64,000 nt of DNA from Bacillota bacterium (lineage in GTDB: Bacteria; Bacillota; Sulfobacillia; JAJZYS01; JAJZLH01). Both the position numbers and the translations under genes were made by a program. Shown here piece after piece: positions 2,077 to 11,813 of the stretch. Below the pieces are notes generated by a model that was not told the origin of the DNA, did not search any database, and saw only the letters and a program-made list of their open reading frames with translations. The stretch's first letter is position 1, and every line of letters starts with the position of its first letter. The stretch is taken from NCBI GenBank assembly GCA_021850485.1, contig JAJZLY010000008.1:1-64000 (forward strand). Reading direction: 5' to 3'.

Positions 2077-2172
2077 TGGCGGGAGCAGGTAGGAATCGAA
2101 CCTACCGCGGACGCGACGCGCCCGCCATTGGATTTGAAGTCCAAGGGGGACACCAGCCCCACCTCTGCCCCC
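2077..2172 (-). tRNA. selC: tRNA-Sec (anticodon UCA)
   Basis: A 96-base gene with the diagnostic architecture of bacterial selenocysteine tRNA. It has an 8-bp acceptor stem (GGGGGCAG with CTGCTCCC, one G-U pair) and a 5-bp T stem (GTAGG/CCTAC) around TTCGATT. The anticodon arm reads TTGGACTTCAAATCCAA with anticodon TCA, and the long variable arm is closed by GCGGGCGC/GCGTCCGC. Discriminator G and an encoded CCA complete the 3' end. It lies between tatC and the DUF502 gene in the same direction. Its presence means the organism decodes some UGA codons as selenocysteine; selA, selB and selD must lie elsewhere. Confidence 0.96.
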
Positions 2173-2996: not shown

Positions 2997-3457
2997 CGGC
3001 CAGTCGCCGCGGCCAGAAGCGGCTTGACGACCTGGCGGTAAACCGCCTCGGGATCCCGGTCGGGAATATGCAGGCAAGGTGCCGGTGCCGGGCCCGACAC
3101 CACCGCCAATAGGCCCGGCAGATCGGCAGGGCAACCGGGGCCGACCCATACCTTGGCACCGGGGTACTCTTTAATCCCCTCCACCAGCAGCAAGCGGGTG
3201 GCCCTGGGCAACCGGCGCTTGGCATCGTCCAGAGTAGGGGAAACGGCCATCTCTAGCACGCCGTCGGCGGCCAAGAGTACCGTCGGCGTGCCAGTCGCAA
3301 ACAGTCGGGCCGAGTCCTTGCGCTCGGGGCTGAGGTCGCCGTGATGGTGCTTGATGGCTGCGACCGAAACATGGTCCCGCTGCAACAGCGCAATCAGCCC
3401 CAAGATCAAGGTTGTCTTGCCGGCCCCAGATGGGCCAACGAAATGGACTTCGGTCAT
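2993..3457 (-). CDS. mobB: Molybdopterin-guanine dinucleotide biosynthesis adaptor MobB
   Basis: 154 residues with Walker A GPSGAGKTT at about residues 8-16 and a following K-H-H-H stretch typical of MobB. MobB is a GTP-binding protein that assists MobA in forming the guanine dinucleotide form of Moco. The ATG at 3457 overlaps the moeA stop (ATGA), and its own stop overlaps tatC in the same way. The gene therefore sits inside a coupled mobA, MoeA-like, moeA, mobB, tatC series. Confidence 0.9.
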   Translation of the reverse strand: MTEVHFVGPSGAGKTTLILGLIALLQRDHVSVAAIKHHHGDLSPERKDSARLFATGTPTVLLAADGVLEMAVSPTLDDAKRRLPRATRLLLVEGIKEYPGAKVWVGPGCPADLPGLLAVVSGPAPAPCLHIPDRDPEAVYRQVVKPLLAAATGR

Positions 3458-4653
3458 CTGCCGCCCCAGGCCGTCATCCACACCTGGACCACTGATCCGG
3501 CTCTGATCCGCTCTTGGCCCGCTTCCGAGCGCACCCAGGCGTCCAATTGGCGGAGCGCACTGACGGCTCCAGATCCGCCGTAGGGGGCCGGACGCACCTG
3601 CACTTTGCCTCCCTCCAGCCGCAGCGCAGCCGGCCAAAAGCGCGCCACGTTGGACCGGTTCGGCGGCAAGGCAGCCTCCAGATACGCCTGTCCGGATGCC
3701 GCCTCACAGGCTCGGCTCTCCATCACCGCCAGCAGGGGTCGCACCAGGCGATCGAAACCGAGGGCAGTGGCCAGCGGGTTGCCCGGAAGCGCGATCCAGA
3801 GGGCATGGCCGCCGGCAAGCACCTGTAGCGGCTGTCCCGGGCGCATCTTCAGGCCGTCGATCAAGGTGCGCCGGCCCAGCCGCTCGGAGACCCGGCGCAC
3901 AAAGTCGCGCGGACCGCGTGAGGCCCCACCTGTGCTCAGCAACAGATCGCAGGCCAGATCCAGCCTGCGCACCTCCGACTCAAACCGGTTTTCGTCGTCA
4001 CCTAAGGTCAGGCCGATCACCGTACAGCCCAGCGCTGTCAACTGCTGAGTTAGCCACGGCCCATTGGTATTGCGGACCATGCCCAAGCCGGACCCACCGT
4101 CTTCCACCAACTCGGAGCCCACTGACAACACTCCGACTGTGACCCGCTGTCGCACGCTGACTTGACGCACACCGGTAGCGCGCAGCAAGGCCATCTGGCC
4201 GGGACCCAGTCGCTCGCCGCGGCGCAAGATGCTCGCTCCCTTGCGAATTTCCTCCCCGACATGGCGCACATTATCCCCAGCCCTCGGCCAGTGCCGCAAA
4301 GCGACCAGTTGTCCTTGGGTCGAGACCTCTTCTTGCCAGGCGATGCCGGCACCGGCCGGCACCATGGCACCGGTAGCTACGAAGAGGGCTTGGCCAGGAG
4401 CCAAACTCGGAGCAGGACCGTCTCCGGCATACACTCGGCCGATCAAGGCGCACGGTTGATGATGGTCGCCGACGACGGCGAAGCCATCGACCGCCGACGT
4501 GTCAAACGCCGGCAGCGGCGAGGCGGCCCGCATCCCTTGGGCAGCCACCCGGCCCAGCGCCTGAGCCAAGTCCACCCGCTCTACGCCCTGTCTGCGGGCG
4601 TGGCTGGCCAGAACTTGCTCGGCTGCCTCGGGACTCAGGCGTTCCATCGCCAC
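3454..4653 (-). CDS. moeA: Molybdopterin molybdenumtransferase MoeA
   Basis: 399 residues. MoeA inserts molybdate into adenylated molybdopterin in the cytoplasm. The first half carries the family segment P-x-F-D-T-S-A-V-D-G-F-A. The MoCF-biosynthesis domain has S-T-G-G-A-S and the L-P-G-N-P loop near residue 300. The GTG at 4653 is preferred because GGAGGAGG lies 10 bases upstream; an ATG at 4647 is two codons inside. The start overlaps the end of the neighbouring MoeA-like gene by 19 bases. The common G-D near the first conserved loop of the MoCF domain is replaced by S-R-G-P-R-D. Confidence 0.92.
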   Translation of the reverse strand: MAMERLSPEAAEQVLASHARRQGVERVDLAQALGRVAAQGMRAASPLPAFDTSAVDGFAVVGDHHQPCALIGRVYAGDGPAPSLAPGQALFVATGAMVPAGAGIAWQEEVSTQGQLVALRHWPRAGDNVRHVGEEIRKGASILRRGERLGPGQMALLRATGVRQVSVRQRVTVGVLSVGSELVEDGGSGLGMVRNTNGPWLTQQLTALGCTVIGLTLGDDENRFESEVRRLDLACDLLLSTGGASRGPRDFVRRVSERLGRRTLIDGLKMRPGQPLQVLAGGHALWIALPGNPLATALGFDRLVRPLLAVMESRACEAASGQAYLEAALPPNRSNVARFWPAALRLEGGKVQVRPAPYGGSGAVSALRQLDAWVRSEAGQERIRAGSVVQVWMTAWGGR

Positions 4654-5648
4654 GGACTTGCGCCCTCCTCCAGTACCAGCCATTCCAGCAGTCCGCCCAC
4701 ACCCATCGCCGCAACTTGATCGGCGGTCGGGATCTCGCCGGCCAGTACCCGCGGCAAGAGCAGGTCAAATACCGTGACCGGATCGGCGATCACGCAGGCC
4801 GGCAACCCTAACACCGGCTTTTGGCCATGCCTGGCCACAATCGCCATCGACCCTGGCAGCACCGGCGTGCCATGGCACACCAGCTGGGCCCCGCTATCTT
4901 GAATTGCACCGGGAGTGCGGTCATCGGGATCCACAGACATGCCTCCGGTGACCAGGATCAGATCGACCTCAGGATCAGCCGTGGCCTGGGCGATGGCCGT
5001 GGCAATCATGGACCGGTCATCGGGCAAGATGGCATGACGCACGATGTGGGCGCCAAATGGCTGGAGTTTGGCCTCCACTCTCGGCCGAAAGGCGTCTGCA
5101 ACTCGACCGCTATAAACTTCTTGTCCGGTGGTCAACAGGGCGACGCGAAGCCGATCGAAGGCCTGCACCCGGAGCAGGGGCCCTTGGCTGAGAGCTGACT
5201 TTACCGCTGCCTCAGGGACAGCCAGCGGCACGCACTTGACGGCTGCCACCCGGTCTCCTTGGTGGACCCCCATCCGGTCTGGTCTGGTCACCACCAGGAG
5301 CTGGCCGCGGCCGTTAAGCGCCCTGACGGCGTCAGCGTCCACCTGCAGCAACCCATCGTATGCCGCCCGCAGGGTCACCTTGCCCTCCTCTGGCCCTTCG
5401 GCGATCAGGCCGTCACCGGCCAGTCCGGCAGCTGTGCGGCTGGCTGCCTCTTGTTCGTGCACGAATCCCGCTTCTAACTCCCAGACGAACAGGTGTTCCT
5501 TGCCCATAGCCCGCAAGACGGGCAGATCTGCCTCTTCGATGATGTGGCCGCGCCCAAAGCGCACCCCTTTGAACTGGCCGGGAACGACCTGGGTCAGGTC
5601 GTGGCCGAGGACCAAGCCCACCGCCTCGGAAAGGGGCACCTCACGCAT
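4635..5648 (-). CDS. MoeA/MoaB-like molybdopterin-binding protein
   Basis: 337 residues, a second molybdopterin-binding protein directly upstream of moeA. The C-terminal half (about 165-310) is a MoCF-biosynthesis fold with T-T-G-Q-E-V-Y-S-G and T-G-G-M-S-V-D-P-D-D. The N-terminal half is distinct and begins with R-E-V-P-L-S-E-A-V-G, resembling the start of MoeA without its full central domain. Proteins of this type are common beside moeA and mobA in Firmicutes but their exact step is not settled. The ATG at 5648 overlaps the mobA stop by eight bases. Confidence 0.78.
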   Translation of the reverse strand: MREVPLSEAVGLVLGHDLTQVVPGQFKGVRFGRGHIIEEADLPVLRAMGKEHLFVWELEAGFVHEQEAASRTAAGLAGDGLIAEGPEEGKVTLRAAYDGLLQVDADAVRALNGRGQLLVVTRPDRMGVHQGDRVAAVKCVPLAVPEAAVKSALSQGPLLRVQAFDRLRVALLTTGQEVYSGRVADAFRPRVEAKLQPFGAHIVRHAILPDDRSMIATAIAQATADPEVDLILVTGGMSVDPDDRTPGAIQDSGAQLVCHGTPVLPGSMAIVARHGQKPVLGLPACVIADPVTVFDLLLPRVLAGEIPTADQVAAMGVGGLLEWLVLEEGASPWRWNA

Positions 5649-6246
5649 GGTCCAACTCCTTTCCGACAAGTCGCCGATAGTCGTCTGGGTGATTGACGTT
5701 GGTGAAGATGGTCGCATCCAAGCCCAGCCTGGTCAGGTCCTCGTCGTCCAGGCGCCGCACACTGATCTGGCTGACGAAGGCTTCCATGCTCGGCCGGTCG
5801 GAATGGACCGTCATTTCCGCCACGGCCAGAGCGGACTGGCGGTAGAGAGCGACCAAGGGCTGTATGCCGGCAGTCCGTCCCAGGTACAAGGCGCCGTCGA
5901 GCCCGCTGCGGGTCGTCAGTAGCTCCTGCAAAAAGCGCTGCGGAACGTGAGGTAGGTCGCAGGCCATGACCAGCACGTCGCCTTCGCGCAGCGCTGCCGC
6001 CACCCCGGCCAAGGGACCCCGTCCCGACGCGATGTCCGCCACGTGGCGGCCTGGCCAGGATGTTTCCGGGCCGCCGATGAACAGCACCTCTCTGGTCAAA
6101 GGCGCCAGCCGGTCGGCTGCAGCTTCGGCCAGCGTCTTGCCGCCATATGGTAACGTCGCCTTGTCCTGGCCCATGCGTACACTCTGCCCGCCGACCAAGA
6201 CCGCGCCCAACGGTCGCAACTCGATGGCTGACTGACTGGTATTCAT
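5641..6246 (-). CDS. mobA: Molybdenum cofactor guanylyltransferase MobA
   Basis: 201 residues. MobA links GMP from GTP to molybdopterin, giving the bis-MGD or MGD cofactor used by DMSO-reductase-type enzymes such as formate dehydrogenases. The nucleotide-binding motif L-V-G-G-Q-S-V-R-M-G-x-D-K lies at about residues 16-28 and M-A-C-D-L-P near residue 100. The ATG at 6246 has GGGGAGGG six bases upstream. It is the first gene of the minus-strand Moco/Tat series that leads to selC. Confidence 0.92.
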   Translation of the reverse strand: MNTSQSAIELRPLGAVLVGGQSVRMGQDKATLPYGGKTLAEAAADRLAPLTREVLFIGGPETSWPGRHVADIASGRGPLAGVAAALREGDVLVMACDLPHVPQRFLQELLTTRSGLDGALYLGRTAGIQPLVALYRQSALAVAEMTVHSDRPSMEAFVSQISVRRLDDEDLTRLGLDATIFTNVNHPDDYRRLVGKELDHA

Positions 6247-6300
6247 CGCCGACCCTCCCCGCCGCGTCAGTGTAATGCAATCTTCACCGCAAACGCACAG

Positions 6301-6326
6301 CGAGCCCCGCCAGTTGGCGGGGCTCG
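6301..6326 (-). terminator. Terminator hairpin after groEL
   Basis: CGAGCCCCGCC and GGCGGGGCTCG form a perfect 11-bp stem with an AGTT loop, 18 bases past the groEL stop. The U-tract is weak. It separates the groESL operon from the mobA series. Confidence 0.7.
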
Positions 6327-6343
6327 GCTGAGCAGGAGCGAGA

Positions 6344-7987
<1,644 letters not shown>

Positions 7988-9303: not shown

Positions 9304-10520
9304 GTCACCACCGTGTCCTCTCGCATCCTGCGAATCTCCTGATCAGTGTAGCCGAGATCCGCCAGCACCTGGTCGGTGTCCTGGCCGAGCTTTGGTGGTG
9401 TGGTGCCGAGCCGGGGCGGCGTACGGCTCATCTCCAGAGGCGACCCCACGGTACGCCACGGTCCGTGCGGGCCGGCAAGCTCCCAGATCAATCCCATGGC
9501 CTGCAGTTGCGGGTGGGCCAGTACCTCCTCCGCCCGCAAGATGTCGGCAGCAGGTACCTCGGCCTGGCGGCACTGGCGGACCCAGTAGTCGGCTGTGTTG
9601 GTCTGGAAGATCTGTTCCAACTGCTCGATCACCAGGTATCGGTTGGTGACGCGGTCGCGATTTCTCGCAAACCGCTGATCGGTGGCCCACTGAGGCTGTC
9701 CCAGCACCGCACACAGGCGCTGCCACTGCGCATCGTTGGCCACGGCCAGGTTGAAGGCCCGGTCTTGAGCCATAAAGCGCTGGTAGGGCACGATCGAGGC
9801 ATGCGCGGAGCCGAGCCGATTGGGCGCGACCTGCGCGGACAACACCGCCTGGGAGATGTGTGCCTGCCAGCTGACCAGCCCGCCCAGCAGGGTGGTTGCC
9901 ACCACCTGGCCGCGGCCGCTGCGGGTGCGCTCCAAGAGTGCCGCTAAGATCCCAATGGCGGTCCACATCCCGGCGCCGATATCGCCGACTGAAAAAGCTG
10001 CCTTGGTCGGCGGACCGTCTGGCTCACCGCTGGCCGCCATCAGGCCAGACATGCCCTGTGCAATCACGTCGTATCCGGGGGTGGTGCGTTCGGGCCCGCT
10101 CTGCCCGAAGCCACTCATCCGGGCATAGACCAGCCCAGGTTGTCTGGCCAGGCAAACGTCTGGCCCGAAGCCAAGGCTCTCCATGGTCCCGGGTCGGAAA
10201 TTCTCGACCAGCACATCGGCCCGGTCGATCAGGCGCCACAACACCTCGGCCCCAGCTGGCTGGGCGAGATCAAGAGCGATGCTGGCCTTGCTGCGGTTGA
10301 CCGACTGGAAATAGGTGCTCTCGCCGTCGACAAAGGGCGGGCCGAAGGCACGGGCATCATCCCCACTCGGCGGCCGCTCCACCTTGATCACCTCGGCGCC
10401 GAGGTCAGCGAGTATCATGGTGCAGTAGGGTCCGCTCAGGACCCGGCTCAGATCCACAACCCGCACGCCGGCCAACACCCCTGGCGGCTGAGCGGGGTGC
10501 GAAGAGGAGTACGACACCAT
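9300..10520 (-). CDS. CaiB/BaiF family (type III) CoA-transferase
   Basis: 406 residues. The first third has V-V-D-L-S-R-V-L-S-G-P-Y and L-A-D-L-G-A-E-V-I-K-V-E, both standard in this family. An Asp in the V-E-N-F-R-P-G-T region lies near the expected catalytic site. Members transfer CoA between carboxylic acids; the acid used here cannot be read from the sequence. The ATG at 10520 has GGGGGGTGG upstream. Its start codon interlocks with that of hslO on the other strand (CATG at 10518-10521). An acyl-CoA dehydrogenase at 13182-14375 and thl/hbd further on show other acyl-CoA chemistry. Confidence 0.9.
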   Translation of the reverse strand: MVSYSSSHPAQPPGVLAGVRVVDLSRVLSGPYCTMILADLGAEVIKVERPPSGDDARAFGPPFVDGESTYFQSVNRSKASIALDLAQPAGAEVLWRLIDRADVLVENFRPGTMESLGFGPDVCLARQPGLVYARMSGFGQSGPERTTPGYDVIAQGMSGLMAASGEPDGPPTKAAFSVGDIGAGMWTAIGILAALLERTRSGRGQVVATTLLGGLVSWQAHISQAVLSAQVAPNRLGSAHASIVPYQRFMAQDRAFNLAVANDAQWQRLCAVLGQPQWATDQRFARNRDRVTNRYLVIEQLEQIFQTNTADYWVRQCRQAEVPAADILRAEEVLAHPQLQAMGLIWELAGPHGPWRTVGSPLEMSRTPPRLGTTPPKLGQDTDQVLADLGYTDQEIRRMREDTVVT

Positions 10521-11400
10521 GCACCACCCCCCGGACGAGATCTTGCGGGCCAGCAGCGAAGATGGGTGGCTACGGCTGATCGCCGTCCGGACGACGACGC
10601 TGACCGAGTCGGCTCGGCGCCGCCACCACACCTCGCCAGTCGCCACAGCTGCCTTGGGCCGCACCTTGACGGGCTGCCTGATGCTCGGGGAGTTGTCCTT
10701 AGCTGCCGCCAGCAGCAGGCTCACCTTGCGCTTGATCGGCGATGGGCCGCTGGCGGCGGTGATCGCCGACTGCGACGGCCGCGGCCGGGTCCGTGGCTAC
10801 GTCTCTCGGCCGACCGTCGAGTTGCCGCTGCGGGCCGATGGCAAGCTGGCAGTCGGCCAAGCGCTGGGCCACGGACAATTGGTGGTCAGCCGGGACTTGG
10901 CTGACGGCCAGATCTACACGTCATCAGTGCCGATGCAAAGCGGCGAGATCGGAGAGGATCTGGCGGCATACTTAGACGCCTCGGACCAAATCCCCTCCGC
11001 GGTAGGCTTGGGCGTCCGGCTGGACCGATCTGGGCGGGTGGTCGGTGCAGGAGGCTGGCTGGTCCAGCTGATGCCGGGCGGCGAAGCTCATCTGGGCTTG
11101 ATCCAAAACAGCACCGCAAGCATGCCGCCGATCTCTCAGCTGATGGCAGACAGTACCGATCTGTCGGCGGTGCTGGCGCTCCTGGCTCCCGGTCTGAGTG
11201 TCCAGGAATCAAGCCGCCATTCGGTTTCTTTCCGCTGCACCTGTTCGCTCCGGCGGGCCCGGCGGGCGGTCGCCATGTTGGGACCAGACACGCTGGCCGA
11301 CCTGGTCGCAATCGGCCAAGACGTCGAGACCAGGTGCCATTTTTGTAACCGGTGCTTTCGTATTCCGGTCGCCGAGTTCAGCGCGCTGACCGCGCGCTGA
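10519..11400 (+). CDS. hslO: Redox-regulated chaperone Hsp33
   Basis: 293 residues. Hsp33 is a cytoplasmic holdase that unfolds and activates when its zinc-binding cysteines are oxidised. The C-terminal centre is intact: C240-x-C242 and C273-x2-C276, with an extra Cys at 279. The ATG at 10519 has GAAGAGGAGT about nine bases upstream, which lies within the divergent CoA-transferase gene. It is directly followed by the selenoprotein gene, another predicted thiol/selenol redox protein. Confidence 0.95.
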   Translation: MHHPPDEILRASSEDGWLRLIAVRTTTLTESARRRHHTSPVATAALGRTLTGCLMLGELSLAAASSRLTLRLIGDGPLAAVIADCDGRGRVRGYVSRPTVELPLRADGKLAVGQALGHGQLVVSRDLADGQIYTSSVPMQSGEIGEDLAAYLDASDQIPSAVGLGVRLDRSGRVVGAGGWLVQLMPGGEAHLGLIQNSTASMPPISQLMADSTDLSAVLALLAPGLSVQESSRHSVSFRCTCSLRRARRAVAMLGPDTLADLVAIGQDVETRCHFCNRCFRIPVAEFSALTAR

Positions 11401-11420: not shown

Positions 11421-11429
11421 TGTTATACT
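11421..11429 (+). promoter_or_regulatory. Extended -10 promoter of the selenoprotein gene
   Basis: TGT-TATACT is an extended -10 element just after the hslO stop, with transcription expected near 11436. No clear -35 box exists, as is usual for extended -10 promoters. It gives the selenoprotein gene a leader of about 30 bases. Confidence 0.5.
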
Positions 11430-11465
11430 GAGTCAATCCTCTACTAGTGCGATGGGAGCATCGGC

Positions 11466-11813
11466 GTGGTACTCTTCTTTCGCCCTGGCTGAACCGCATG
11501 TGATCAGGCGAGGGCGTGGCTCTCGCACAAGCAGGTGACGGTCACGCTCCGTCGCATCGACCTAGATCCGCCGACCGCTGCGCAGTGGGCCAAGGCTGCG
11601 GTCTGGCTCGGCAGTGCCAGGCCGCTTGTGTCAGGGCGTTCCCGGCGGGCACTGGCCCTAGGGATTGACCCCGGGACCCTGTCCGATGCCCAGTTGTTGG
11701 CGCTGTTGTCCCAGGAGCCGGCGCTGGCCCGCCGCCCCCTGCTGATCTCGGACCACGGTGCGGTTTCAGGCTTCAGTGCCGCAGCCTATGAGCGACTGGC
11801 CGCCCTCGGTTGA
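11466..11813 (+). CDS. ArsC/Spx-like selenoprotein (in-frame UGA read as Sec)
   Basis: Read through the TGA at 11490-11492, the frame gives a 115-residue protein, the normal length of the ArsC/Spx/YffB thioredoxin-fold family. Residues 1-12 read V-V-L-F-F-R-P-G-U-T-A-C, a beta strand followed by Sec9-x-x-Cys12 exactly where Spx-type proteins have Cys-x-x-Cys. The helix A-R-A-W-L and a second strand L-R-R-I-D-L follow. The C-terminal half has the family pattern L-L-S-Q-E-P-A-L-A-R-R-P-L-L-I and a later V-S-G-F. The GTG at 11466 has GGGAG seven bases upstream. Starting after the TGA (GTG 11535) would remove the first strand and the active site. Arsenate reductase, thiol reductase or Spx-like regulation are all possible; no partner gene decides. 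Confidence 0.88.
11496..11532 (+). promoter_or_regulatory. Bacterial SECIS-like hairpin after the UGA
   Basis: The lower stem pairs TGTG (11499-11502) with CACA (11526-11529), extended by GC/GC. Above a 6-base bulge is an apical stem CGAGGG/CTCTCG (11509-11514 with 11520-11525, one G-U pair). Its 5-base loop CGTGG contains a GU. The loop is about 24 bases past the UGA, within the distance used by SelB-dependent bacterial SECIS elements. Confidence 0.7.

Follow-up and report, generated by a model that had tools for sequence, protein, structure and literature searches.

An in-frame UGA codon that very probably encodes the active-site selenocysteine of an ArsC/Spx-fold protein in a class of Bacillota

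Selenocysteine (Sec)-containing Spx-type proteins with a UxxC motif are already known in outline, and the protein described here adds a member. One such group falls in cd03032, which we take to be the Spx subfamily. Named "arsenate reductase 2" in a 2008 GOS survey, it has Sec in a UxxC motif, as the present protein does, and was likened to it here by description; it was predicted from marine metagenome sequences that carry no assigned function (PMC2398784). ArsC selenoproteins with UxxS had been predicted from the Sargasso Sea in 2005 and named arsenate reductases (PMC1088965), and a 2026 review places this group under TIGR00014 (PMC13188914). They share the ArsC fold and Sec with the present family, which differs in being mostly UxxC and Spx-like. 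The same review lists NF041106 (ArsC_rel_Se_1), a Sec/Cys family of ArsC-like proteins, with UxxC (PMC13188914), but the protein described here scores 21.8 bits against that model, under its cut-off of 85; the best E-value over 19 members of the present family is 8.8e-15. An earlier note on this DNA had mentioned ArsC-like selenoproteins from metagenomic surveys, and the kind proves to be better known than it stated (PMC2398784; PMC13188914). This protein is absent from the selenoproteins listed for Symbiobacterium thermophilum in 2006 (PMC1794560), and a literature search, which most subscription papers lay outside, returned no paper on a Sec-containing Spx-type protein in this class. For Spx itself, CxxC, Gly52, and R-P-[ILV] serve as identifiers (PMC12822559), and roles of G52, R60, and K62 have been described (PMC2801614).

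An in-frame UGA and its relatives

The window analyzed is a stretch of 64,000 nucleotides from a Bacillota bacterium of the class Sulfobacillia (contig JAJZLY010000008.1). The gene lies at 11466..11813 on the + strand and starts with GTG, and direct reading bears out the claim of the earlier note that its frame is broken solely by a TGA at codon 9 (11490..11492). If this UGA is an amino acid, the sense frame (11466-11810) encodes 115 residues before a terminal TGA at 11811-11813. The codon-9 UGA aligns with Cys10 of Spx, and the TGT of Cys12 (11499..11501) supplies the U-x-x-C partner, so the TGA does stand at the first Cys of C-x-x-C, as had been proposed; among the 45 Sec forms in the alignment, 40 have Cys and 5 have Ser at position 12. 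Codon-position GC of the frame (0.71/0.57/0.76) follows the same pattern as that of the upstream neighbor hslO (0.67/0.54/0.80).

Local signals agree in part with those listed earlier. A Shine-Dalgarno-like GGGAG (11454..11458) is present 7 nt upstream of the GTG. An extended -10-like TGTTATACT at 11421..11429 on the + strand, between hslO and the selenoprotein gene, is the sole TGNTATAMT in the window (0.21 expected). Because no -35 partner was found, the promoter claimed for this element is tentative; no terminator was found at the locus. A standard gene finder would truncate the gene at the UGA, and the corrected reading holds for an entire class within the Bacillota.

The same codon was followed in 154 genomes of the same class, counting the best full-length match per genome. 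Matches occurred in 80 genomes, with an in-frame TGA in 66, a full-length stop-free frame in 12, and a weak or partial match in 2; an earlier search of 61 genomes had found homologues in 21, mostly with one TGA. The codon was read in 54 distinct sequences, 46 Sec and 8 Cys. In every Sec sequence read, the UGA occupies the codon that corresponds to Spx Cys10, and all 11 of the 12 stop-free genomes in which the codon was read have Cys there. Three stop-free loci beyond the 54 (L116, L118, and L120) also encode Cys at this site, followed by different letters. The check for Cys or UGA in relatives thus returned one or the other in every relative read. A DNA pattern combining the UGA with the hairpin described below, run over named genomes, identified 23 loci, all encoding this protein and one cut by a contig end; they lie in metagenome-assembled genomes labelled Bacillota, Clostridia, Chloroflexi, Dehalococcoidia, and, in one case, Thermoflexus hugenholtzii.

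TGT and TGC are one base from TGA, and a sequencing or assembly error could in principle turn a Cys codon into the TGA seen here. The identical TGA is present in many independently assembled genomes, including G121 and G123, where the UGA-form gene is on a chromosome-sized contig. Recurrence of the UGA with a covarying hairpin in dozens of independent genomes refutes error as the family-wide cause, and we give this explanation next to no chance.

In a phylum-level search, UGA homologues were also seen outside the class (e.g., in G434, G214, and G242), intermixed with Cys-type Spx relatives. One genome holds a second, more distant paralogue (L134, G106:C7:31300-32300), which reads MAWTFYHKHGUGACESVKAWLSQHE.

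Hairpin and selenocysteine machinery

A SECIS-like hairpin had been proposed for this gene, and the element at 11508..11526 on the + strand both folds and covaries across genomes. Its arms, GCGAGGGC (11508-11515) and GCTCTCGC (11519-11526), form a perfect 8-bp stem 15 nt downstream of the UGA around a 3-nt loop that begins with G (GTG, 11516-11518), with a fold z of -3.2. No Rfam SECIS family matched it. Covariation was assessed in 16 sequences taken from the protein search and not selected for a stem; the 23 pattern loci were left out because the selection pattern itself included the hairpin. In this set 95.3% of cells were paired, three pairs had changed on both sides, and the stem covariation score was 0.287 versus 0.128 in shuffles (0/500), with all slid controls lower. 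In Sec forms collected without use of the pattern, the best stem had on average 7.0 of 8 pairs, versus 3.8 in Cys forms. Among 35 Sec family members likewise not pattern-chosen, 24 had all 8 pairs and the 3-nt loop; the remaining 11 were lower in this simple pair count, some of them apparently having another loop size or a bulge. Residues encoded over the 3' arm are mostly L-S-[QH] in Sec forms and variable in Cys forms, as if the RNA hairpin had left its mark on the protein sequence.

These data bear on whether the gene is a pseudogene or the UGA an ordinary stop, in which case the largest possible product would start at GTG 11535 and be 92 aa long. A broken remnant at the same site in a sister species (G001) and the long branch of the window protein are compatible with decay, but the 115-codon frame is intact with a coding-type base composition, the 8-bp SECIS is perfect, and dozens of relatives have both the UGA and the covarying hairpin. 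A product starting at 11535 would also be without the first strand and active site, as had been pointed out for the downstream frame. Termination at this UGA is therefore considered very unlikely.

The machinery needed to read the codon was sought in the window and in the rest of its genome. The tRNA-Sec gene selC (anticodon TCA) is in the window, as the earlier note had it, at 2077..2172 on the - strand; its score with the Rfam tRNA-Sec model is 72.7 bits, above the cut-off of 47. The search for selA, selB, and selD located all three: selB at G000:C15:212-2038, selD at G000:C20:57266-58189, and, adjoining it, selA at G000:C20:58236-59534. The selD gene is itself Sec-containing, with its own in-frame TGA, and the pair spans G000:C20:57266-59534 on the - strand. 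Across the class, SelB was above cut-off in 62 of the 66 UGA-form genomes; the other four comprise G010, with a split SelB, and G119, G137, and G142, with SelA. SelB was missing in 8 of the 12 stop-free genomes (Fisher p 8e-6, a value that ignores kinship and is inflated by it, since seven of these eight genomes are one family), and one genome without SelB, G046, is missing SelD and SelA too.

SelB, Sec-tRNA(Sec), and the post-UGA hairpin would together help the ribosome insert Sec at position 9, and translation would then run on as far as the terminal UGA, which is also the end of the family alignment. Dozens of related bacteria share this in-frame UGA together with the RNA hairpin, so the gene is real, and it is very likely that the window protein is a selenoprotein with Sec9 in its active site. 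UGA conservation, Cys replacement, the SECIS, the machinery, and the predicted fold all give comparative support, and Sec insertion in this organism, which we infer, is as well supported as sequence permits.

Other frames were observed along with the machinery. Near selC, those at window positions 3454-6360 appear molybdenum cofactor-like (MoeA-like and MobA-like) as judged by eye. A glutaredoxin-like frame with an in-frame TGA (L144, G000:C15:42843-43043, - strand; VTVYHSPGUGSCHQAM) resembles UXX-star selenoproteins and is also present in G001 and G002, and two more glutaredoxin-like frames, at G000:C25:87121-87312 and G000:C19:39017-39190 (both +), have one TGA each.

Predicted fold and candidate role

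All profile scores for the window protein were obtained with Cys substituted at the UGA codon. Pfam ArsC (PF03960) matched residues 7-110, a span that crosses the UGA, at 1.6e-9 and 38.4 bits, above its gathering cut-off of 24. The top NCBIfam models were Spx-type, PRK01655 (1e-12) and TIGR01617 (2e-12), with scores under both curated cut-offs (48.2 bits versus 123 and 47.3 versus 75.05, respectively); a match in 5 of 24 genomes searched exceeded the TIGR01617 cut-off. The nearest solved structures by sequence are Spx chains, and the family profile scores Spx at 120 bits, YffB at 78, and E. coli ArsC at 57. AlphaFold2 gave a pLDDT of 95.3 with 22 aligned sequences and 51 in a single-sequence run. 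Foldseek and VIA-align both place the former model with Spx, YffB, and ArsC, Bacillus subtilis Spx (1z3e/3gfk) giving the best Foldseek match (3gfk, E 1.2e-8, TM 0.85) and a VIA Z of 17.0. Two short ArsC-related proteins of equal length, 3gkx from Bacteroides fragilis and YffB (1rw1), had VIA Z scores of 17.8 and 16.0; these differ in being Cys proteins, and YffB falls below Spx in the profile search. The predicted fold is thus the thioredoxin-like fold of Spx, YffB, and ArsC, and reading the UGA as Sec restores it at full length, as the earlier note had argued.

Resemblance to Spx extends to individual residues. The redox pair is at equal positions, with Sec replacing the first Cys, and 40 of the 45 Sec forms, the window protein among them, have UxxC, a motif that corresponds to the Spx CxxC if Sec is taken as the first Cys. 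The Spx R-P-I motif is R90-P91-L92 in the window protein (Arg90-Pro91 codons, 11733..11738, + strand; Spx R92-P93), with R-P invariant across the aligned family and I, L, or V as the third residue. R60 of Spx is retained in 35 of 45 Sec forms; K62 is not conserved. At the site of Spx Gly52, an alpha-CTD contact, 35 of 45 Sec forms have Gly, and the window protein has Ser.

The selenol of Sec9 and the thiol of Cys12 would act as a redox pair where helix 1 begins, probably near the invariant Arg90-Pro91, by analogy with Spx R92-P93. Sec9 would act as the nucleophile on a disulfide or other oxidized substrate, and Cys12 would resolve the intermediate, a step that could fall to an outside thiol in UxxS relatives. 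This chemistry would suit a small cytosolic selenol/thiol oxidoreductase, similar to glutaredoxin or YffB, which we favor with modest confidence as the role of the protein. Two points speak for it: 5 of the 45 Sec forms carry UxxS, a motif that fits a mono-selenol enzyme but not an internal switch, and the window protein is without Gly52; counted against it is that the family is nearest in sequence to Spx regulators and not to characterized reductases.

That proximity suggests, more tentatively, a Sec version of Spx, which would bind the alpha-CTD of RNA polymerase and use a Sec9-Cys12 selenenylsulfide to switch transcription of thiol-stress genes. Consistent with such a regulator are the family profile scores, the three Spx identifiers being mostly retained across the 45 forms (R-P-[ILV] in all of them), the frequent R60, and the alpha-CTD site of Y263, a Spx contact, which is Y or F in six genomes checked and Y in the window's genome. 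Moreover, most of these genomes yielded no other full-length protein of Spx/ArsC type. However, the window copy has Ser at Gly52 and falls under the TIGR01617 cut-off (47 versus 75 bits), K62 is unconserved, an internal switch would be impossible in the UxxS forms, and the protein stops near Spx residue 115, without the Spx C-terminal tail. A regulator of this type is a possibility of lower standing, though if it were true, selenium would enter transcription control. Somewhat less likely still is that, throughout this class, the sole Spx-type protein uses Sec as its redox switch and acts on RNA polymerase, so that selenium status would directly influence thiol-stress gene control.

An arsenate reductase, in which Sec9 would attack arsenate directly, would share the ArsC fold and the conserved Arg-Pro by the active site, and Sec homologues were so named in metagenomic surveys (PMC1088965, PMC2398784). 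The window protein scores 28.1 bits against TIGR00014 (NCBIfam arsC; cut-off 106), Spx-type models score higher, and no adjacent arsenic gene was noticed; arsenate reduction is accordingly rated quite improbable. Roles other than enzyme or regulator are unlikely.

Neighborhood and evolution

The upstream neighbor of the gene is hslO (Hsp33; 10519..11400, + strand), and the earlier note implied a tie between the two. Direct adjacency was seen in this genus alone. In family f4, hslO is ~1.8-2.7 kb from the selenoprotein gene, and the remaining loci, many of which are short, showed no hslO close to it. In the sister species G001, whose hslO is 70% identical, the hslO-lytR gap contains "VVLFFRP" and then a disrupted frame that lacks the Sec codon, indicating that this species has lost the selenoprotein gene and kept a remnant; searches of G002 found neither hslO nor the selenoprotein gene. 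A functional link to hslO was dropped, since G001 has only the remnant and the synteny test shows that the neighborhood is not generally conserved.

The branch of the window protein is long, at 1.61 changes per column, and weakly placed in the tree, and the protein deviates at several otherwise conserved residues. Together with the loss in G001, this suggests that the window copy may be under weak selection.

In the 53-row tree, Sec and Cys states need six changes. For example, the Cys form L013 (G035) is sister to the Sec form L089 of the same genus with support of 100/89, and natural Cys/Sec pairs of this kind provide a way to ask what advantage Sec has over Cys.
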